From a virus, in IMG/VR virus record IMGVR_UViG_3300025117_000005, positions 1-64,000 of that record: a stretch of DNA of 64,000 nt, one strand, 5' to 3'. Made by a program: the position numbers and the translations under genes. This document shows positions 23,296-63,439 of the stretch, in pieces. The notes beneath the pieces were generated by a model that ran no database searches, was not told the origin of the DNA, and saw only the letters and a program-made list of their open reading frames with translations. Numbering within the stretch: the stretch's first letter is position 1; the number at the start of each line of letters is the position of its first letter.

Positions 23296-24372
23296 TTAGT
23301 CGAAGAAAAATGGGAGCTGGAGGATTACCTTCGATGTGCCGTCATTAACGACCTGCGTGGTGGACTGCACTGTGAAGGTCGCCTGTCCGTCCATCGGATT
23401 TTCGTTGTTCTTGAAGTCCGGCGCGAAAGCCCCGCCAGTCGTCACCTTCGGATACCAGATGGCAAGCTGGCGCTGAACGCTGTTGACAACGGCATCGAAG
23501 AAGACAAGAAGCGACTTCTCGTTGATGGTGCCAAGAGGGTCCAACATCTCAATGGACTTGTAGGCCGCCAAGAGATTCGGAGATGCAGGGGTGCCGGTAA
23601 ACGCTGCATTCAGGTTGAGAATGGCCCCACCGCCATCAACGGAGACAATATAGTTCCTGTCCGTCTTTGCCAACAGTGCGCTGATATTGTCAGTCACAAC
23701 AGGATGGAAGATTACCCGATCACCGGCCGCAAACCGATTCGCCTCACCCGCGCCCAAGGTGATAGTCTTGTTGGCTGAACTGTATGAAGCCACGGTGCCG
23801 ACCTTGGCAATGATAATGTCACCCGCTTCAGGTGGGACGGCCCACGTACCATCAGCGGTCACGGTCTTCGCCGATACATCGATGGACTTGATGGTTTCCT
23901 CACCGACGATGACATCACCGGAAATATCCCAGAAAGAAATCTTGTCCCCCACAACAAACTTGCTTACCTCTTTCGAGGTCGCAAAGGTTGTGACCGCATC
24001 TCCGATATTGGTCTGTGTTACGACCGTTCCCATCGACACCACGTTCGATTGGGTCATACCCATGACCTGCGCCAGGACTTCGGCATGCATTTCATGGTAC
24101 GTAAACGTGACCTGTGCCGTGCGCTCTCCTTCCCATGACAAACGGGTTGTCTTGGGCAAACCGAGCTTGAGTTCTCCGATGTTCTTGGTCACAGGCACTG
24201 CGACACCGGAAATGAGCCCGAGGTCAGTCCATCCACTCAGGGGTGAAGAGACCGCCAGGATGCTCTGCCCCGAATAGAGAATGTCTGCTGCATAGTCCCG
24301 GGCGAAGACACGGGGAGACGAGATAAAAATAAATCCTTCATGTTTGATTGGCTGCTCAAAGGAAAAGCTCAT
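23296..24372 (-). CDS. Major tail tube protein
   Basis: 358 residues, on the long side for a tail tube protein. It lies between the tail-completion genes and the chaperone, has a strong Shine-Dalgarno (AACAGGAGGATATCA) and is followed by its own terminator, as expected for an abundant protein. The sequence is beta-rich: an N-terminal part (LGLPKTTRLSWEGERTAQVTFTYHEM) and a C-terminal part (ATFTVQSTTQVVNDGTSKVILQLPFFF) flank a 130-residue middle insert (about 115-245) with repeated SVDGGGA/KTVTADG-type strands. The insert may be a surface-exposed Ig-like domain. Assigned mainly by order and size. Confidence 0.75.
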   Translation of the reverse strand: MSFSFEQPIKHEGFIFISSPRVFARDYAADILYSGQSILAVSSPLSGWTDLGLISGVAVPVTKNIGELKLGLPKTTRLSWEGERTAQVTFTYHEMHAEVLAQVMGMTQSNVVSMGTVVTQTNIGDAVTTFATSKEVSKFVVGDKISFWDISGDVIVGEETIKSIDVSAKTVTADGTWAVPPEAGDIIIAKVGTVASYSSANKTITLGAGEANRFAAGDRVIFHPVVTDNISALLAKTDRNYIVSVDGGGAILNLNAAFTGTPASPNLLAAYKSIEMLDPLGTINEKSLLVFFDAVVNSVQRQLAIWYPKVTTGGAFAPDFKNNENPMDGQATFTVQSTTQVVNDGTSKVILQLPFFFD

Positions 24373-37856: not shown

Positions 37857-38642
37857 CTAAACAAAACAAACACCCGAATTACAGTAAAGACCCGAATCAA
37901 AAAGCGTAGGCTCTTTTGAGAAATCAACCTTGTCCAGTGGGATGCAGGATTTATGGAGCCATGCATAAGGATCGAATTCTTGAATCTCTTTCTCGAAGTC
38001 AATGGCCTTTTGAAATTCATCGGGATAATTTTGTTTCAGTTCGCTCCATTGATCATCTGTCTGGTTTGGACACATCCAACACCGTGACCGAGGAGGAGTC
38101 GGCCAGCCCATTGATTCTACAATCGAAATTGCCTGTTGGCGGGTAAGAGGAAAGTCTTTACACAATGGGAGTCTGACAAGTCCATTTTTACCGTCATCTG
38201 TTACCATTATTCGTTGTGCCCGTCGCCACTCATCCATACTAAATCCGATCCACTTTATGTACTGTTTCCGAGTAATTGAATGTTGACGGCTTAAATATCT
38301 ATCTATCGGCCTGACTTTCCAACGGCCTGAACAAAATCCACCCAACTTCCCGACATTGCCGGTTTGATCAGACCACGCCCCCACAAGAAGCGTTTCCCCC
38401 TCATGCCAGTCCTTCCCATCCGGCCTTCCTTTGTACCAATCGTGCCCTACTTTCTGCACTTGAATCCCCACGCCCAAAAGGGCAGGTTCGACAATGGCAT
38501 CAAGGTATTTCCATGTAGCAGCGCATTCTCGCCCGGTATCTGCAATAACCACAATATCGGGCTTCGGCAATTTTCCTTGGACGATCAGGGCCGCAATCGC
38601 CGTGCTTTGAGTGCCTCCACCGGAAGAGAAAACTTCGATCAT
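37857..38642 (-). CDS. PAPS reductase-like ATP-pyrophosphatase
   Basis: 261 residues from ATG 38642 (ATGA overlap with the previous gene). The PP-loop SSGGGTQST (6-14) and VIADTGRE that follows are hallmarks of the adenine nucleotide alpha-hydrolase superfamily that includes PAPS reductase and sulfur-modification enzymes. A Cys pair, CWMCPNQTDDQW, near 195 and a terminal CNSGVCFV may bind metal or take part in redox or sulfur chemistry. Phage members of this group are common and their substrates unknown; base or tRNA sulfur chemistry is a guess. It is the third gene of the cargo between terS and terL. Confidence 0.75.
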   Translation of the reverse strand: MIEVFSSGGGTQSTAIAALIVQGKLPKPDIVVIADTGRECAATWKYLDAIVEPALLGVGIQVQKVGHDWYKGRPDGKDWHEGETLLVGAWSDQTGNVGKLGGFCSGRWKVRPIDRYLSRQHSITRKQYIKWIGFSMDEWRRAQRIMVTDDGKNGLVRLPLCKDFPLTRQQAISIVESMGWPTPPRSRCWMCPNQTDDQWSELKQNYPDEFQKAIDFEKEIQEFDPYAWLHKSCIPLDKVDFSKEPTLFDSGLYCNSGVCFV

Positions 38643-38962
38643 TGCTTTGCCCTCACTATCTTGAACCCCGCACCCTCTGGGAGCCGAATCGTCATATCCC
38701 AATCCAGCGTGTGAATCTTGTCACCCATCTGTATCCGGTCACGCATCAGGAACTTGAGACGAGCAACCCCTGGATCAGACACGTCTAACTCCGTCCCGAT
38801 CATTTTCCGGTCAATAAGGAAGGTTGAAAGCCCTGCACTATCCGTCCCCTTAACCTCCACTGAATAGTTCGCCATGGAGTCAAGGGAACCCTTGCAACCG
38901 CTTCCAATTACGGCGATCAGGATACACAAGCCGATCAGTAAGGTGGCAGCCCTAATCGCCAT
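38639..38962 (-). CDS. Small exported (possibly lipid-anchored) protein
   Basis: 107 residues with an N-terminal signal (AATLLIGLCILIAVIGSGC). The Cys at residue 23 could be lipidated, but the lipobox GSGC is atypical, so a transmembrane anchor is the alternative. The rest is a small beta-rich domain (YSVEVKGTDSAGLSTFLIDRK, IHTLDWDMTIRLPEG). Near-perfect Shine-Dalgarno AAGGAGGTGAAAC. It overlaps the protease gene by 11 bp, so the two are made together; it may be a partner, substrate or inhibitor of that protease. Confidence 0.65.
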   Translation of the reverse strand: MAIRAATLLIGLCILIAVIGSGCKGSLDSMANYSVEVKGTDSAGLSTFLIDRKMIGTELDVSDPGVARLKFLMRDRIQMGDKIHTLDWDMTIRLPEGAGFKIVRAKQ

Positions 38963-43707: not shown

Positions 43708-44032
43708 CATCAAGGCCAGCCCCCACCGGCCGTTCAGGTTTTGATGCAATCTGCTTGATCTCCGGCATGTAGACGCTGATCGGCTCGGGTTTGTACCGCT
43801 GCACAAAGAGACGGACCACCTCTTCCGAGACAGGGGTGATTGAGTAGATCGCACCATTCCCGTAGAGATGGGTCACAGCCATGGAGTCCTCGACGGCAGG
43901 GGTATCAACCCTCACAAATGCACAACCACCGATCGTTGTTTCACTCAAAAACCCCGCCACCCGGGTATGCCCGAACAGATCAACGAGAGCCCAAAATCCT
44001 TCACCGATACTTGCTGTTTTTTTATCGACCAT
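43685..44032 (-). CDS. Conserved-looking phage protein, unknown
   Basis: 115 residues with EGFWALVDLFGHTRVAGFLSE and GGCAFVRVDTPA, a pattern I know from many phage genomes without an assigned role. Acidic C terminus (LDDDEYEYR). It overlaps the methyltransferase end by 11 bp. Confidence 0.65.
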   Translation of the reverse strand: MVDKKTASIGEGFWALVDLFGHTRVAGFLSETTIGGCAFVRVDTPAVEDSMAVTHLYGNGAIYSITPVSEEVVRLFVQRYKPEPISVYMPEIKQIASKPERPVGAGLDDDEYEYR

Positions 44033-44732
44033 TGTTTGCCCTCCTTAAACTTTTGTACCCCGCATCCATTTTTTCACGGGGTGGCCTCCTAAAGTCGAAC
44101 CGTTCCTGCCCATAATGATCTTCCAGCCTCTTCTTGGCCGCCTCAAAATAGTCTTTGTCGATCTCGAAACCCGTCAAATCAAAGCCCATGTCGTGACAGG
44201 CTACGGCGATTGAGCCGGAACCGAGATGGGTGTCCAGGATCTTGTCGCCGTCATGGGCGTAGTTTTTGAGAAGCCACTTGTAAAGGGCAACTGGCTTCTG
44301 GGTTGGATGTATCTTCTCGTCCTGAATAGACACAATGAATCCTGCATTTCCACAAAACCTAAAAAGCCTGGCCGGTGAGTCAAAGGAAGTCCACGCATAT
44401 TCGACCTGAGAAAAGTTTTCAACAGCTCGGATTTTGTCCCATGCGATGAAACATCGGCACGGCCTCAATACAAAATAATTCCCCCCAAAAATTATCTGAT
44501 TCTGACTTACACTGAAAAGATTTTTGAAATATTGTTCATTGGGTACCTCATTCCACTTTTTGCTATTTTCTTTATAGGCTTGGTGAAATTTGACTTGAGA
44601 CTTCGTATTGCTTCCCCCTCCGCTCGATATATTACAAGCCTCTCCATACGGCGGGTCCACAATGGCAAGCTGAAAGTACTTGTCGGGATAACGCTTCATC
44701 CCCTCCATGCAGTCCTCGTTAAAAAAGCTCAA
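44022..44732 (-). CDS. DNA adenine/cytosine-N4 methyltransferase
   Basis: 236 residues. The catalytic DPPYG lies near the N terminus (26-30) and the SAM-binding motif HLGSGSIAVAC late (about 163-175), the permuted order of beta-class DNA amino-methyltransferases; HPTQKPVALYKWLL just before it is also typical. The start appears to be TTG (44732), since a stop codon precedes it in frame and the next Met would cut off conserved residues. It probably methylates phage DNA for protection against host restriction or for regulation; the recognition site is unknown. No partner endonuclease nearby. Confidence 0.85.
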   Translation of the reverse strand: MSFFNEDCMEGMKRYPDKYFQLAIVDPPYGEACNISSGGGSNTKSQVKFHQAYKENSKKWNEVPNEQYFKNLFSVSQNQIIFGGNYFVLRPCRCFIAWDKIRAVENFSQVEYAWTSFDSPARLFRFCGNAGFIVSIQDEKIHPTQKPVALYKWLLKNYAHDGDKILDTHLGSGSIAVACHDMGFDLTGFEIDKDYFEAAKKRLEDHYGQERFDFRRPPREKMDAGYKSLRRANNGR

Positions 44733-54043: not shown

Positions 54044-57000
54044 ATGGCTTACCACTCCAACAAATTCAAACACTGGGACGTACCGCACCCAGGACCGATA
54101 CAGAGCGAGGAACCCATGACCGAAGCCGAAGAGATATTGACCGACACGGGACGCGCGGCAAACCATGATTTGTCGTTCCGCCGATGGTCCGCTTCCCGCC
54201 ACGCACAATATTTTACAAATATGCGCGTCTCGAATCTTTTGTGTTCCATGGTAGCCTTGCTCCTGCCAACTCCGGAAAGCATCAAGCTCCTGCACGTCCT
54301 TGACCCCACATGCGGAACCGGACGCCTGCTCTATCCGTTCAAACGCAAGGAGGCCCGGGTTGTCGGGGTAGAACTGGACAAAGAGCAGAGCGACAAGGCA
54401 AAGCAGCTTCTGGGAAAGGAAGCCGTCAGGCCCGGCTCAATTCTGGACTACGCGCAGTACCTGGAATCCTCTTTCGATATCGTAGTCACCAACCCGCCCT
54501 ACGGTATCCTGTGGAGCCAGGAAGACACGCCATTTGAGTTTGAAGGATTGTCCTACGCAAAGAACATCGAGAGCCAGAACGCCACCCTTCAAATCTGTCA
54601 CAAGGCGCTTAAAGGTCACGGCTGGATGTTTGCAATCATCCCTACCAGCTCATTCACCAACGACAAAGACAGCTCGCTCCGGCAGTACCTGTACCATAAT
54701 TTTACCGTGTGCTTTCGGGCAACCCTGAACGGACTGTTTAAGGAGGAATACGGCATTGACGTCCAGGTTGACCTTGTGGCTGCGGCGCGGAAGGGGTATG
54801 GGCATGACAGGTCATCCCTTAAACCGATCGAACTGGACGCAACAGACCCGCTTTTAGAGCAAAAGGTGATTGAGGCATGGAAGCCAATTGCCCAGGCCCT
54901 GGGCATCCCCGCATATAACCTCTATGACCACGAAACCGCCGTACCTTTTTTGAACAACCTGATTGAGATGCCAGTTTCAACAAATGCTGAAATCACGGCC
55001 CGGGGTGTAAAGGCCGACCCGACCAGCCTTGCTATGATGGACTTCTATAATGAAACTTTGAGATTTTACAACCCCGTGGTAGGAAAGCCGACCGGGATCA
55101 AAGACGCTTTCCTTGAGGCCCCCGCACTCTGTAAGCGTGGAGTAGAGAAGGCTGAGGAAATATTGACGGCGATCGGTTACAATGTGACGGTCACAGATAC
55201 AGCCCGGAAGAAGATTGCCGCCCTACAAGAGAAATTCAAGCTGCTATCCATCCCGATCTACCCCCCGAAGGACCACCAGTTACTTGCCTACTTCGACGAG
55301 AGAGAGTACACGGCGAAGGCCGACGTTTATGACATCACGGAAGACAACGAGTACAGACAGGATCACCGGGATAATGGACAGGGCAAAAACCCCGTCATCC
55401 TCTTTAAGAAGGGGAAGGCCTACCACCTGAAGCCATCATGGGTACGACAAAAGGAGTGCGCCGGGATTGAGGTTATCGGAGAAGGCAAACAGCAGAAGAC
55501 CATCACGACCGAGATCGACCGCGGGTTTCTGTCAATCTCCGTGGACACCGAGCAGGGTAACCGCGAGTTCAGGGAACCCGAGCCAATGGAGGTAGCTCTT
55601 TTTTTAGAAGCATTTGATTTACCAGTAGTGAACGACATCATGACCGAGAGGCCCGAGCAGGTCAAGGCATGGAAGGCAAAACTTCTTAAAACGTATCCAC
55701 ATGTTTTTACCCCTGAGTTCGACTACCAAGCCGAAGACCTGTCACGGATCCTCACAAAGACAAAATCCGCGTACATCGGTTACGATATGGGAGGGGGTAA
55801 GAGCGTGTCGGCCCTTGCATTTCACGCCGTCCGCAACGTCAAGCGAGTTCTGGTTGTCTGTCAATCTTCGCTGGTAGACAACTGGACCAATGAGGCCGAG
55901 AAGTTTGGATTTAAGGCCCAGAGATTAACCAACCATAAATCGATTGACCTGTTACTACAGGCCATCGACAGTAAAACCGAATCACCCGGAACGACGTTTT
56001 ACATCACATCCTATGAATTCCTATCCCTTGACACCGGCAAGGTATATGACCCCTGGACCTGTGTTAAATACGATAAGGACGGGAACGAGCGCCACCGGGT
56101 AGAGGGGAACCGAGGCCGGACATGCCAGCAGTGCAATACTGAATATTCATCCCTGCAAAGGGAGTGCCCGAAGTGCAAGGCCAAGGAGGAATGGACCGGG
56201 GAACAGTGTTTGAAATGCGGGTACAGCGCATACACTTATTCGTCGAAGCTGAAGCAGTACCCCGCATACCGAAGAATCAACAAGCTGTTTCGCTCAGTGA
56301 TTATCGACGAGAGCCAGCAGGCAAAATCGAAATCCAGCTTTCGCGGCCAGGCCGTCAGAGCCCTCCACGCCAAGAGCAGACTGGAATTGACCGGCACATT
56401 GATGAAGGGCTACATCACAGACACCTTTTTCAATCTTGGATATGTGGCCCACCATAACAACCCACTGTTCCCGTACCGGTTCGACAGGAGAGGAAGCAAG
56501 CTATTTGCGGAAGAGTTCAGCACGTTCGAATTCAAGTCAATCGAGTTTGAGGACACACTTTCAAGAGGCCGCAAAAAGGAATTACCAGAGGTCTCTAACC
56601 TGAACCGGTTCTGGAAGATCCTTGCAGCGTTCGCAGTGCGCCGCCTCAAAGACGATATGGTGAAACTCCCTCCTAAGTACCGGCGCATTATGGCCCTACC
56701 CCTGGACCCCGCACACGCGACCGAGTACGGGATTGCAGCCAGTAACGCAAAGGAAAAGATCGACCGGGAAATGAGAAAGCCAGAGGAAGAGATCAACATG
56801 GGTGTCATTTCGAAAGCCCTGTGGTCTATGAGGTTCGCGGCCACCGTCCCTAGGATCTACCCGCAGGATAACGTCAAGATCCGGAAGGCAATCGAAATCA
56901 CCGCAGAGGCCAGAGCCAAAGGGGAAAAGACAATCGTATTTTCCGCACTCCGGGAAATGCAACTCACACTACACCAGGAGTTTGAACGCCGAGGCATCAA

Positions 57001-57619
57001 CCATATCTTCATCCCCTCGACCGTGCAGACGAAGGACCGATTCAGACACATCAAGCGATTTCAGGAAGACCTAGATATCACCTGCATTATTGCCGGCCTG
57101 AACGTCCTGAACCGGGGATTTACCATCACCGCCGCAAACCATGTGATCTTTACGGACGTGGAGTACAGCCCGGAGAGCACCGACCAGGGAGAGGACCGGG
57201 CGCACAGGACAGGCCAGGACAAGCCCGTGACGTGCTGGTATCTCCTGATCGACTGGACAGACGAAGACCAGAACATAGATTTCAAGATGTTCGATCTCAT
57301 CCACGCTAAAAAGCAGGCGATTTCCAACGCGATCGATGGCAAAGTGAGATTCGACAAGACCGCCCGTGTTCTACGCGCCGGAGGGGATTTCTTAGCTCTT
57401 GCAAAAGCGATCAGCGGGGAAGTGGAAACCCCGGTATCGTTCGAGTACGAGAGGATAGGAGACAGCCACGCAGAACCCCCGCAGATGCAGGAGACAACGG
57501 TTATCGAAGACGAGAAGTGGTACACCCTGTACGAGCAGGTTCACCAGGAGAAGGCAGATAAACCCGCGATCGTGAGGAAGAAGAACGGAAACGAAAACCA
57601 GTTAAGCATGTTTGGATAA
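54044..57619 (+). CDS. DNA methyltransferase - SNF2 helicase fusion with zinc ribbons
   Basis: 1191 residues. Methyltransferase part: SAM motif LDPTCGTGRL (86-95) and catalytic NPPYG (150-154), the gamma-type order of N6-adenine enzymes. Helicase part: Walker A DMGGGKS (581-587), motif Ia VVCQSSLVDNW, motif II DESQ (755-758), motif III LTGTLMKGY, motif V LNRGFTITAANHVIF and motif VI EDRAHRTGQ, which place it in SNF2/superfamily 2. Six Cys (694, 697, 708, 711, 722, 725) form zinc-ribbon-like knuckles between motifs Ia and II. The last residues, NQLSMFG, match the QLxLF beta-clamp-binding pattern. No nuclease motif seen. Resembles the domain pair of phage P1 DarB. Start at 54044 (GAGGAATAAACCC); ATG 54116 also has a good site. 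Confidence 0.85.
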   Translation: MAYHSNKFKHWDVPHPGPIQSEEPMTEAEEILTDTGRAANHDLSFRRWSASRHAQYFTNMRVSNLLCSMVALLLPTPESIKLLHVLDPTCGTGRLLYPFKRKEARVVGVELDKEQSDKAKQLLGKEAVRPGSILDYAQYLESSFDIVVTNPPYGILWSQEDTPFEFEGLSYAKNIESQNATLQICHKALKGHGWMFAIIPTSSFTNDKDSSLRQYLYHNFTVCFRATLNGLFKEEYGIDVQVDLVAAARKGYGHDRSSLKPIELDATDPLLEQKVIEAWKPIAQALGIPAYNLYDHETAVPFLNNLIEMPVSTNAEITARGVKADPTSLAMMDFYNETLRFYNPVVGKPTGIKDAFLEAPALCKRGVEKAEEILTAIGYNVTVTDTARKKIAALQEKFKLLSIPIYPPKDHQLLAYFDEREYTAKADVYDITEDNEYRQDHRDNGQGKNPVILFKKGKAYHLKPSWVRQKECAGIEVIGEGKQQKTITTEIDRGFLSISVDTEQGNREFREPEPMEVALFLEAFDLPVVNDIMTERPEQVKAWKAKLLKTYPHVFTPEFDYQAEDLSRILTKTKSAYIGYDMGGGKSVSALAFHAVRNVKRVLVVCQSSLVDNWTNEAEKFGFKAQRLTNHKSIDLLLQAIDSKTESPGTTFYITSYEFLSLDTGKVYDPWTCVKYDKDGNERHRVEGNRGRTCQQCNTEYSSLQRECPKCKAKEEWTGEQCLKCGYSAYTYSSKLKQYPAYRRINKLFRSVIIDESQQAKSKSSFRGQAVRALHAKSRLELTGTLMKGYITDTFFNLGYVAHHNNPLFPYRFDRRGSKLFAEEFSTFEFKSIEFEDTLSRGRKKELPEVSNLNRFWKILAAFAVRRLKDDMVKLPPKYRRIMALPLDPAHATEYGIAASNAKEKIDREMRKPEEEINMGVISKALWSMRFAATVPRIYPQDNVKIRKAIEITAEARAKGEKTIVFSALREMQLTLHQEFERRGINHIFIPSTVQTKDRFRHIKRFQEDLDITCIIAGLNVLNRGFTITAANHVIFTDVEYSPESTDQGEDRAHRTGQDKPVTCWYLLIDWTDEDQNIDFKMFDLIHAKKQAISNAIDGKVRFDKTARVLRAGGDFLALAKAISGEVETPVSFEYERIGDSHAEPPQMQETTVIEDEKWYTLYEQVHQEKADKPAIVRKKNGNENQLSMFG

Positions 57620-57631
57620 GGAGGAAACCCG

Positions 57632-58573
57632 ATGAACCACGCCATCACCGCCCTACTACTGCAACCCGAGGCCCAGGAGGCCCAGGAGGCCCAGGCCCCA
57701 CAGTCCCATTATGACCGCTTCCAAGGGGTGTTCGAATCGTTCAAGGCATCCTACGTCAACGAGCGCCACCCCACGGAGAACACGTTGCGCAGCCTGAAAA
57801 TGGTTGTCCCCAGGTTTCTCACATTCATCTCGAAAAACCGCCAGGACGTGAACGAGATCGACAAGCAGGACGTGATTGACTATCTCAATAGCTTGAAGGG
57901 GTTAAGGACATCCAGCCGCCTCTTGCACCTGAGAATCATCACCCTCTTTATGAACTGGCTGCACCACATGGGAACCCTTAAGGCGCAGTGGGAAACCGTA
58001 ACTTACAAAGGCCGGGCAGATGTCCCCAGAGCCCCCCAGAAGGAATTAACCAAGGAAGAGGTCGAGAAGATTCTGAATCACATGGACAATCTGAAGGGGA
58101 AGGAGAAGGTCTTGATTCAGCTACTTCTTGCTCGACCACTCCGGATAGGGGAACTGGCAAAGCTGGAGGTCCGGGACGTGGATCTGACCGGGAGAACCAT
58201 CACCATCACTAAGGGGAAGAACAAAAAGACCCGGACCATCTCTATCCCAGAAACGATCTATGACGGACTGAGCCAGTTGATTGAAAGCGCAAAACTCCGA
58301 CACGACCTTGTCTTTGGATTGCAGACTGTTTCGATGATCCATATCGTGAACCGGGTTCTGGAAAAGGCAGGAGTTATCAGGAATGGAAGGTCTACACACT
58401 CACTGAGGCATACGGTGATAATGAGGATGAGACACGAGGCCCATGTTGATGTCGAGGTTGTAGCTGAACTGGCAGGCAACACGCCCGGGACCATCTACCG
58501 GAATTACAATCACGTGCCGGTTGCCGCCCAGCGCCAAGCCGAACAAGATTTAGATAGACTTCTTTCTGTGTGA
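57632..58573 (+). CDS. int: Tyrosine recombinase / integrase
   Basis: 313 residues. Core-binding domain about 27-115 (FESFKASYVNERHPTENTLRSL), catalytic domain about 137-313. Active-site residues by motif: Arg171 (RIGEL), Lys194 (TKGKNKK), His256 and Arg259 (HSLRH), and nucleophile Tyr292 (RNYNHV). The usual LGH His is Asn283 here (AGNTPGTIY), a substitution tolerated in some family members. It may integrate the phage or resolve dimers; no att core was identified nearby. The N terminus has a three-copy GAGGCCCAG DNA repeat (QEAQEAQ). Strong start AAGGAGGAAACCCG. Confidence 0.85.
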   Translation: MNHAITALLLQPEAQEAQEAQAPQSHYDRFQGVFESFKASYVNERHPTENTLRSLKMVVPRFLTFISKNRQDVNEIDKQDVIDYLNSLKGLRTSSRLLHLRIITLFMNWLHHMGTLKAQWETVTYKGRADVPRAPQKELTKEEVEKILNHMDNLKGKEKVLIQLLLARPLRIGELAKLEVRDVDLTGRTITITKGKNKKTRTISIPETIYDGLSQLIESAKLRHDLVFGLQTVSMIHIVNRVLEKAGVIRNGRSTHSLRHTVIMRMRHEAHVDVEVVAELAGNTPGTIYRNYNHVPVAAQRQAEQDLDRLLSV

Positions 58574-60696: not shown

Positions 60697-60983
60697 AGAC
60701 ATGCTTGGATTGCCTACATTGCAAGGTCATCTTTCCTGTCAACCAGGAGAACCCACTTTTGACGGACCTCACCGTCACTACTTCGGTGAATAGTTCCTCG
60801 CAGCACGTGCGGAATCTACGGTGTGCTAAGGATCGATGGGACACTGAGACAGGGGTACAGAAGAAGACAATACGCTATGACGCGGGAGCCAAGAAGCATG
60901 CACAGAACGGAAAGAGCAGGTTCTTGAATTTAAATCGATTTTGTGAAGACCGCGAATACATGGAGGACCACGATGAATCCTAA
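60693..60983 (+). CDS. Small Cys-motif protein
   Basis: 96 residues starting KTCLDCLHCKV (three Cys, with more later: RCAKDRW and RFCEDR). Looks like a small zinc-binding protein. Overlaps the resolvase start by 11 bp. Confidence 0.55.
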   Translation: MKTCLDCLHCKVIFPVNQENPLLTDLTVTTSVNSSSQHVRNLRCAKDRWDTETGVQKKTIRYDAGAKKHAQNGKSRFLNLNRFCEDREYMEDHDES

Positions 60984-61452
60984 TATTTTAGGGCTTGACC
61001 TATCCCTCGTAGAGACAGGGGCCTACTGCTACGACCCGGTAGAGGGCGGGGAGGTGTTTCAGACGATAGTAACCTCTAAACCGAACCCGGATGTAAGCGA
61101 CATCCAGAGGATCAACACGATCCTTGCCGCCATTCAACTCTTGATAGATAGGGCCAACCCGAGCCTTGTTTGCATAGAGGGATTGAGTTACGGCAGTAAG
61201 AACACGTCCTCGCTCTGCCAGCTCGCCATGCTCTCTTATGCCGTCCAAAACTATCTGCTTAAGAATGGCATCCAGTACGCGATGGTCCCCCCGACGACCC
61301 TGAAGAAGTTCACAACTGGGAAGGGAAATGCAAAGAAGGAACAGATGCTTTTGCAGATCTTCAAGAGGTGGGGAAAAGAATTCTCCAACAACAACCTTGC
61401 GGATGCTTTCGCTCTGGCAAAATGGGGCGAACGGTCGTTTCAACAAGAGTAG
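60973..61452 (+). CDS. RuvC-like Holliday junction resolvase
   Basis: 159 residues from ATG 60973 (GGAGGACCACG). RNase-H-like fold with catalytic Asp9 (ILGLDLS), Glu69 (LVCIEGLSYGS) and Asp144 (NNNLADAFALA). The Ser/Thr-rich CIEGLSYG turn and the APP/VPPTTLKKF segment are standard in RuvC relatives. It should resolve branched DNA produced by recombination or packaging. First of a recombination set with the ATPase and RecT. Confidence 0.85.
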   Translation: MNPNILGLDLSLVETGAYCYDPVEGGEVFQTIVTSKPNPDVSDIQRINTILAAIQLLIDRANPSLVCIEGLSYGSKNTSSLCQLAMLSYAVQNYLLKNGIQYAMVPPTTLKKFTTGKGNAKKEQMLLQIFKRWGKEFSNNNLADAFALAKWGERSFQQE

Positions 61453-61462
61453 GAGGACTAGA

Positions 61463-63439
61463 ATGCTGGAAATTAAGCTCAACAAACTATCCCTACGTGA
61501 TTTCCAGGGAGGAACCATCAATCTGAATTTGGGTGGTAATGACGCCTCTATCTTTGCCGCCAACGCGGGGGGGAAGACGCGCCTCGTGTCGGCCTTTTCG
61601 TGGTTGCTTTTTAATAAAGACGCTCTTGGCCGCTCCGCTTTTGAAATTAAAAACCTTGACGCACAGGGCGAGGCTGCGCACGGCCTTGAGCACTCTGTTG
61701 AGGCTGACCTCGATGTAAACGGCCAGATTGTAAACCTAAAAAAGGTATATCAGGAGAAGTGGCAAAAGAAACGTGGGAGCGCGAACAAGGATTTTACGGG
61801 GCATACCACAAACTTCTACATCGATGGAGTACCCACGCAGGAAAAGGACTACGTTTCCCGGATCTCGGAGATTGCCGGGGATGAATCCCGGTTCAGGCTT
61901 TTGACCTCTCCCACGACGTTTCCTGCCCTCCACTGGAAAAACCAGAGGGCGCTTTTGCTCGACATCTGCGGTGACATCACGGACCAGGACGTCATGCTCT
62001 CAAACGAAAAACTCTCCGGTCTGACCGCTATCCTCGGAAAACATACCCTTGATGACCACCGGAGGGTTGTCGCCGCCCGCCGTTCGGAAATCAATAAGGC
62101 CATGGAGCAACTGCCTGTCAGGATAGACGAAGTGCGCCGTGGCATCCCGGATGTGACCGGGATTGACCGAAAGAAAGCCGAGCAGGAAGCGCAACACTTC
62201 GAAACTGCCCTGAATGATGCAAAATTGAGGCTCCAGGGCATTAATACCGGGGGGAGCATAGCAACCCTCACGACAACACTCTCAGGGCTCAACGCGGACC
62301 TGCGGAAGATGGAGGACGCCCACAGGTCCGGCTCTCTGTCTACCCTAAACAGGCTGAATCAGCAGATCTCTGAATTGGAGGCAAAAGTCACCGCGTCCCG
62401 CCGGCGAGTCGAAGTCATCAATGGGGAGTTAAAGTGGAAAGATGGACAGGTCCAGGGGATGGACGCCGATCTCTCGGGACTGCGTGAAAAATGGGCTCTC
62501 GTTGATGCCGACGCCTTCAAAGACACGACGATCGACACGTGTGCGGCCTGCGGGCAGGCCCTGCCCTCTGATCGTGTCCAGGAAGCCAGAGAGAAGGCCA
62601 TGTCCGCATTTAATCAGGGTAAGGCTGACCGTCTGGGAGATATCCAACAGAAAGGGAAGACCCTCCGGGAACAGAAAGACAGGCTTGAGACCGATCGGAA
62701 AGCTCTTAAAGACGAACTCGGGGGATTGGTTCTTAGGCTACCCAACGAAGAAAGCGAACTAAAACGATTGACAGAGGACCGCGACGCTCTGAAACGCAAC
62801 TCAGAAGACTTCGCAGGGGTTCATGGAAGGTCTGACCTTCTGGCTCAGATTGCGGAGGCCGAAGCCGAGATCAGGACTGAGCGGGATGGCAAGTCGCAAG
62901 ACATCGAGGCAATCAACGGAGAGATCCGTGGGCTCCAGACTGCACTCTCCACCGCGAAAGGGAATGTGAATCTCTTCACCCGCCGGGAACAGGGAGAAAA
63001 GCGCATAGAGGAATTGAAAGTAGACGAGAAAAAACTGGCCGCAGAGTTTGAAAAACTGGAAGGAGAAATCTATTGGATGGAGCAGTTCATCAAGACGAAG
63101 GTTGCCCTTCTCACCGACAGGATCAACGGGAAATTCGAAACGGTGAGGTTCAAACTGTTTAACCAGTTGGTAAATGGAGGTATCGAGGACTGCTGTGAAA
63201 TCACTGTGGGAGGCATTGGGTTCAACTCTGGATTGAATAATGCTGCCAGGATCAATGCAGGCCTCGAAATCGTGAAAGTTCTGCAACAGCACGATCAGAT
63301 TAAAGCACCAGTCTTCGCCGATAATGCTGAGGCCGTGAATAACCTGGTGGATGTTGGATGCCAGATGATCAGGCTCTATGTATCGGAGGATAAGCAGCTA
63401 CGGATTGAGGTTGCAACAAAAGAGAGGCTGGCAGCATAA
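61463..63439 (+). CDS. SbcC/Rad50-like ATPase with zinc hook
   Basis: 658 residues from ATG 61463 (GTAGGAGGACTAGA; upstream in-frame codons overlap the resolvase). Walker A AANAGGKT (32-39) is a variant of the usual GxNGxGKS. Coiled-coil arms flank a zinc hook CAACGQ (Cys360, Cys363). The end holds signature-like NNAARINAGLEIVKVL and Walker B APVFADNAEAV (about 616-626). It resembles SbcC/Rad50 but is half its length. The partner nuclease (SbcD-like) is not in the window. It probably prepares DNA ends for RecT. Confidence 0.8.
   Translation: MLEIKLNKLSLRDFQGGTINLNLGGNDASIFAANAGGKTRLVSAFSWLLFNKDALGRSAFEIKNLDAQGEAAHGLEHSVEADLDVNGQIVNLKKVYQEKWQKKRGSANKDFTGHTTNFYIDGVPTQEKDYVSRISEIAGDESRFRLLTSPTTFPALHWKNQRALLLDICGDITDQDVMLSNEKLSGLTAILGKHTLDDHRRVVAARRSEINKAMEQLPVRIDEVRRGIPDVTGIDRKKAEQEAQHFETALNDAKLRLQGINTGGSIATLTTTLSGLNADLRKMEDAHRSGSLSTLNRLNQQISELEAKVTASRRRVEVINGELKWKDGQVQGMDADLSGLREKWALVDADAFKDTTIDTCAACGQALPSDRVQEAREKAMSAFNQGKADRLGDIQQKGKTLREQKDRLETDRKALKDELGGLVLRLPNEESELKRLTEDRDALKRNSEDFAGVHGRSDLLAQIAEAEAEIRTERDGKSQDIEAINGEIRGLQTALSTAKGNVNLFTRREQGEKRIEELKVDEKKLAAEFEKLEGEIYWMEQFIKTKVALLTDRINGKFETVRFKLFNQLVNGGIEDCCEITVGGIGFNSGLNNAARINAGLEIVKVLQQHDQIKAPVFADNAEAVNNLVDVGCQMIRLYVSEDKQLRIEVATKERLAA

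Follow-up and report, generated by a model that had tools for sequence, protein, structure and literature searches.

An adenine methyltransferase-SNF2 phage protein with a conserved, clamp-binding-type C-terminal peptide

Background

Why would a bacteriophage join an adenine methyltransferase to a SNF2-type motor in one polypeptide, and end that polypeptide in a peptide of the beta-clamp-binding type? The question is raised by one gene in a 64,000-nucleotide stretch of viral DNA (positions 1 to 64,000 of IMG/VR record IMGVR_UViG_3300025117_000005, hereafter the window), itself taken from a virus record of 76,274 bases. An uninterrupted reading frame on the + strand, at 54044-57619, encodes 1191 residues in the order methyltransferase, middle region, SNF2 motor and clamp-type peptide. 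The core pairing is already known: a methylase-SWI2/SNF2 dyad has been described in phages and plasmids, with fusions also outside the polyvalent proteins (Iyer et al. 2017, PMC5512222), and the window protein is a variant of it with a clamp-type peptide.

Here we present an analysis of this protein, its relatives and its genetic setting. The reading we prefer is that a sliding clamp recruits the methyltransferase-motor to methylate phage DNA during replication, which would confer resistance to restriction or mark the DNA as the phage's own. We put its probability at roughly 0.5; it is the simplest mechanism in which every conserved part has a use.

Results

A preliminary description, made from the sequence alone, had singled out this 1191-residue frame, and it was found exactly so. 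The product probably begins at the ATG at 54116, which would make it 1167 residues long, because the homologues begin there (their N-termini, MTE.., align to the same ATG) and a GAGGAA ribosome-binding site lies upstream. Residues are numbered here from the start of the longer frame.

Relatives were found in other viral contigs. The close ones are 69-75% identical to the window protein (L001, L002/L003, L007, L008/L009/L010, L012 and L015), and a distant set with the identical full architecture is 33-41% identical (L022, L023, L027/L029 and L028). No record among the cultivated phages and plasmids covers 80% of the protein, no near DNA match to cultivated phages was found, and the sole return from a scan of genome contigs was an ANME-1 archaeal gene of the ordinary type I HsdM-like sort. 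The SNF2 relatives present in cultivated phages are standalone helicases.

The N-terminal domain (residues 47-285; 54182-54898, + strand) is matched by Pfam N6_Mtase at residues 47-221 (3e-8); this call and those for the two motor lobes below all exceed the curated cut-offs. Its motifs stand in X-I-IV order, with an X-like QYFT, motif I DPTCGTGRLL (54302-54331) and NPPY (54491-54502, residue 150), and NPP[YF] is present in every full-length relative. An AlphaFold2 model of residues 1-580, built from ten sequences, has a mean predicted local distance difference test score (pLDDT) of 75, with values of about 85-90 across most of residues 60-250 and mostly 70-90 in the middle region. The best fold matches of the modelled methyltransferase are Listeria lmo1582 (Z 22.5), BsaXI (Z 21.4) and EcoKI HsdM (Z 20.0), followed by M.BseCI (Z 19.2) and M.TaqI (Z 17.8); for EcoKI M, BsaXI, M.BseCI, M.TaqI and the type ISP enzymes together, Z is 17-22 and the root-mean-square deviation 2.6-5.5. 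Among viral folds the closest is that of a phage methyltransferase of 493 residues; the alignment spans 544 columns, but the overall superposition is not good. By its motifs and predicted fold, then, the domain is a gamma-class N6-adenine DNA methyltransferase, and it would deposit N6-methyladenine (m6A). The preliminary description had proposed an N6-type methyltransferase, and neither of the failings it named as refuting, a missing fold match for this domain or loss of the key motifs in relatives, was seen.

The middle region (residues 286-545; 54899-55678, + strand) is retained in all full-length relatives and belongs to no known family. A PHROG search with this region of the window protein gave no match, and the OmpA matches from a profile search against the PDB were weak (E 0.13 and above) and were taken as noise. 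Its position fits a putative role in recognition of the DNA target.

The motor comprises two lobes, the first at residues 559-905 (55718-56758, + strand; Pfam SNF2-rel_dom at 579-905, 4.5e-14, as well as PHROG 62 and the alignment) and the second at residues 947-1057 (56882-57214, + strand; Helicase_C, 4.2e-14), and PHROG 62, a DNA helicase family, matches residues 479-1112 at 1.4e-60. The two lobes carry the features of a SWI2/SNF2 protein, namely Walker A (DMGGGKS, 55784-55804, residue 581), DExQ (DESQ, 56306-56317, residue 755), motif III LTGT and motif VI RxxRxGQ (DRAHRTGQ, 57194-57217, residue 1051). All full-length members keep the Walker A sequence and motif VI, and DESQ is also kept in relatives, so that the complete SNF2-type motor of the preliminary description stands. 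The six cysteines it had placed between motor motifs are three CxxC pairs in the stretch from Walker A to DESQ, starting at residues 694, 708 and 722 (residues 694-725; 56123-56218, + strand). In an alignment of eight sequences C694, C708, C711, C722 and C725 are invariant and the sixth cysteine is partly replaced in distant relatives; the Pfam zinc-ribbon model DZR falls below threshold at 692-726, and we regard the insert as a putative double zinc ribbon. Probable inteins lie within the motor of some relatives: L002 and L023 have one at Walker A (matched in L023 by Pfam Intein_splicing, 3e-20), and L002 and L003 have one straight after DESQQ, as judged by sequence. The methyltransferase-SNF2 gene is a recurrent intein target.

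Profile searches of the 1191-residue protein with Pfam and NCBIfam matched no nuclease family, in agreement with the earlier observation that no nuclease motif is seen. This bears on the kinship with type ISP restriction enzymes such as LlaGI and LlaBIII, which likewise combine a gamma-class adenine methyltransferase and a superfamily 2 motor in a single chain and whose fold is matched at Z 17-18. Type ISP enzymes are arranged as nuclease, motor, methyltransferase and target domain, whereas the window protein begins with its methyltransferase and has no matched nuclease; we therefore rejected this assignment. It bears equally on the idea of a superinfection-exclusion or restriction-like device, in which the methyltransferase would protect the phage's own DNA and the motor would attack or stall on unmethylated foreign DNA. 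The pairing of methyltransferase and motor does resemble restriction-modification systems, and the motor is similar to the defence proteins ZorD and DpdE. However, besides the missing nuclease match, the NCBIfam scores for ZorD (68 against a cut-off of 1500), DISARM DrmD (16 against 610-950) and BREX PglX (18 against 500) are so far under the curated cut-offs that membership of these families was rejected, and we consider such a device improbable.

The protein ends in QLSMF (residues 1186-1190; 57599-57613, + strand). The published beta-clamp-binding consensus is Q(aliphatic)x[L/M][F/L], or a hexamer with one extra residue (PMC11139829), and QLSMF conforms to it. The close relatives carry QMTLF (L007), QLTLF (L001, L012 and L015), QFTLF (L002 and L003) and QMELF (L009/L010, 12 residues short of the C-terminus), and the distant ones QLAMF (L022), QMCIEF (L023), QLCIEF (L027) and QIEFDF (L028); QFTLF, QMCIEF, QLCIEF and QIEFDF fit the consensus more loosely. 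Every member with a complete C-terminus has a clamp-type peptide at the end or within 12 residues of it, with the general form Q-hydrophobic-x-hydrophobic-(x)-F. The peptide persists, down to lineages of about 30-40% identity, behind a polar, fast-evolving linker (residues 1127-1184; 57422-57595, + strand) which is part of the least conserved portion of the protein, the tail: between the window and other lineages, nonsynonymous divergence (dN) is 0.42-0.87 in the tail linker against 0.14-0.19 in the motor.

Clamp-type C-termini were found in 6 of 335 reading frames from eight sequences, all six being the methyltransferase-SNF2 gene. Among 247 non-overlapping frames from 13 loci there were 13, of which 11 were this gene, against 0.27 expected from shuffled tails. 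The peptide is absent from eight standalone phage SNF2 helicases, from P1 DarB and from one Bacillus plasmid methyltransferase-SNF2 protein. One other frame of the window, at 23296-24372 on the - strand, ends in QLPFFF, which matches the loose hexamer pattern and was taken as chance. The earlier guess of a clamp-binding peptide has therefore gained ground, the motif being on consensus, conserved to about 30-40% identity, commoner than shuffled tails predict and nearly confined to this gene in the contigs. In its consensus, terminal position and conservation the peptide has the sequence hallmarks of a beta-clamp client, and it may bind the clamp.

Which clamp would it bind? A search for the beta clamp (PF00712) in nine viral records returned one in two, G005 and G006, which hold the relatives L023 and L027; none was found in the record of the window phage. 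Both clamps have three domains and contain TDG[RK]..V and MPLR stretches, which on our own reading resemble the pocket region of the E. coli clamp. L023 and L027 are 77% identical and form one clade, so the co-occurrence is a single evolutionary instance. Full-length, three-domain clamp frames lie at L032:8326-9465 (- strand, 379 residues) and L033:8692-9816 (- strand, 374 residues), in two uncultivated phages for which Pfam gave no polymerase of family A, B or C. Clamp-encoding phage G005 also specifies a 210-residue protein of no known function (L045:2888-3520, - strand) that ends in DQIQLDLGGV, a hexamer-like clamp motif. Pfam found no family A, B or C (III-alpha) DNA polymerase in the nine records, several of which are fragments; this would fit phages that rely on the replicase of their host.

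The clamps also bear on host takeover, in which the peptide would sit on the host's clamp and hold back host replication while the enzymes serve a separate role. Conservation of the peptide and the lack of a PF00712 match in the record of the window phage are what such a poison would predict, but the phages of two relatives bring a clamp of their own, which speaks of partnership rather than poisoning, and a large, constrained enzyme would be a costly inhibitor. Of the alternatives we weighed, this seems to us the least probable.

The gene setting is one of replication and recombination, not of the virion. A tyrosine recombinase (57632-58573, + strand; Pfam Phage_integrase 1.3e-21) starts 13 bases downstream and is the conserved downstream neighbour in close relatives, with one intervening gene in L009/L010. 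The same early block holds a RuvC-like resolvase (60943-61452, + strand) and a SbcC-like recombination ATPase (61328-63439, + strand; phrog_77, 6e-66), and a RecT-like annealing protein (L006:5653-6636; phrog_148, 2.8e-58) comes after the SbcC-like gene. A repressor-like gene lies nearby on the opposite strand, and the structural genes (terminase, portal, head, tape measure and tail fibre) are on the - strand, away from the methyltransferase-SNF2 gene. L023 is neighboured by genes for Sak4, UvrD, an ArdC/metallopeptidase protein and a Cas4-like exonuclease, and L028 by genes for an SMC/SbcC-type ATPase and a PolB-exonuclease-like protein. These neighbours, together with the two relatives in clamp-encoding phages, strengthen the apparent link to replication. 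As side observations, a second, different tyrosine recombinase of the window phage lies at L006:13613-14749; the ArdC N-terminal domain upstream of the L023 family member is fused to a polyvalent-type metallopeptidase (L023:1257-2138); and a phosphoadenosine phosphosulfate reductase-like gene (37857-38702, - strand; phrog_424, 7e-36) adjoins the terminase.

The same setting would suit a protein acting chiefly as a motor for recombination or fork restart, its SNF2 part remodelling forks or stripping proteins at the clamp and its methylation serving strand discrimination or gene control rather than antirestriction. Standalone phage SNF2 helicases (Dp-1 gp61, phage G gp594, Sticker17 gp57 and others; PHROG 62) belong to the same motor family by profile and phmmer searches, and several adjoin DnaC/DnaB, RecT or RuvC genes. 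They have 470-663 residues and, in the eight we checked, no methyltransferase, three-CxxC insert or C-terminal clamp peptide. Selection points the same way. Synonymous sites approach or have reached saturation in most comparisons of lineages, but L007 permits a measurement: against it, omega falls from 0.20 in the methyltransferase and 0.16 in the middle region to 0.04 in the motor, so that the protein is under purifying selection and the motor is its most constrained part. Against this, the catalytic motifs of the methyltransferase are kept across deep divergence, and methylation is therefore not incidental; we regard a primarily fork-restart function as unlikely, though worth keeping in view.

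Comparison with P1 DarB, which the preliminary description had invoked, gave a mixed result. Both are of the same general kind, a single phage polypeptide that places an adenine-type methyltransferase ahead of a SWI2/SNF2 motor, and an antirestriction role is plausible for both. The window protein, however, is half the size of DarB and lacks its N-terminal four-helix domain LPD36, for which there is no room, merely some 22-46 residues preceding the methyltransferase domain. DarB has NVPF where the window family has NPP[YF], and the CxxC motor insert, the unassigned middle region and the C-terminal clamp peptide set the window protein further apart. The best local match to DarB covers 67 residues of the SNF2 part (33% identity, E 1e-5), that of the methyltransferase part is marginal (E 0.28), and no DarB-like PHROG matches the window protein at E 0.01. 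We accordingly rejected membership of the DarB family, there being no LPD36, no full-length homology and no NPPY in DarB. For a DarB-type antirestriction protein, carried in the virion to shield injected DNA from type I enzymes, the shared dyad (PMC5512222) is the argument in favour; yet the gene lies in the early block on the strand opposite the structural genes rather than among virion genes, and docking on a clamp makes sense during replication, not at injection. We hold this reading very unlikely.

The phages of the relatives also encode beta-class methyltransferases, unrelated to the methyltransferase-SNF2 protein, with clamp-like ends (L028:9642-10505; L043:98-898 and 968-2236; L045:1450-2271; L044:1438-2685). 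The ends are NQIKLEF, NQLKLEF and VQTELEF, with looser forms DQLMFL and VQKVLFA. Of 64 phage beta-class methyltransferases counted after de-duplication, 7 end in the strict pattern, compared with 1 among 549 other frames at the same loci (Fisher p 7e-7, a figure that overstates independence because the enzymes have a common ancestry and a Q-rich helix at the C-terminus in common). We treat these putative clamp-like ends as a lead, not a result.

Discussion

The preferred reading, recruitment of a methyltransferase-motor by the sliding clamp, can be laid out as a sequence of steps. The protein would be made early, and its C-terminal peptide would tether it to a beta sliding clamp, which would be that of the host in the window phage and is probably phage-encoded in two relatives. 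Clamps remaining on newly copied phage DNA would recruit it there. The SNF2 part, as a double-strand DNA translocase, would move the enzyme along the duplex or clear bound proteins, and the CxxC insert could act as a module contacting DNA or protein. The middle region might direct the methyltransferase, which would place N6-methyladenine on the new DNA, so that the phage genome would be re-marked as fast as it is copied and its progeny shielded from restriction, or phage DNA told from that of the host.

Several points weigh against this reading. Sequence-specific targeting is a guess, because the middle region could not be assigned to a family. Structural support covers residues 1-580, a full-length AlphaFold2 model from five close sequences having been discarded at a mean pLDDT of 36. 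A motif of five residues can mislead; in L009 another 12 residues follow the motif, and QIEFDF of L028 departs from the strict consensus. Finally, the window phage has a second, beta-class methyltransferase (44022-44732, - strand; PF01555, 1e-16; DPPY) that lacks a C-terminal clamp-type peptide, and clamp tethering is therefore no general need in this phage.

A broader form of the proposal would see a distinct phage family of clamp-tethered methyltransferase-motors that re-methylate the genome at the fork, in two cases with a phage-encoded clamp as partner, C-terminal tethering having perhaps also arisen in the unrelated beta-class phage methyltransferases. We offer it tentatively, at rather less than even odds.

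Replication-coupled adenine methylation that shields an element from restriction has a precedent in the plasmid enzymes M.EcoGIX and M.BceJIII, which differ from the window protein in being beta-class, lacking a motor and depending on DNA polymerase I, with no clamp peptide described in the portion of that account drawn on here (PMC7736820). A second parallel, offered as a works-like analogy only, is maintenance methylation in eukaryotes, in which DNMT1, PCNA and HELLS/DDM1 likewise bring together a methyltransferase, a sliding clamp and a SNF2 motor. DNMT1 has a PCNA-binding box. HELLS and PCNA/PAF15 have been linked to replication-coupled methylation (PMC11343034). The eukaryotic components are separate proteins that act in cytosine methylation, and we claim no homology between the methyltransferases.

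Conclusions

If the preferred reading is true, one phage polypeptide would solve what eukaryotes do with DNMT1, PCNA and a SNF2 remodeler, that is, keep methylation in step with copying. It would also offer a reason why the pairing of an adenine methyltransferase with a SNF2 motor recurs in mobile elements.

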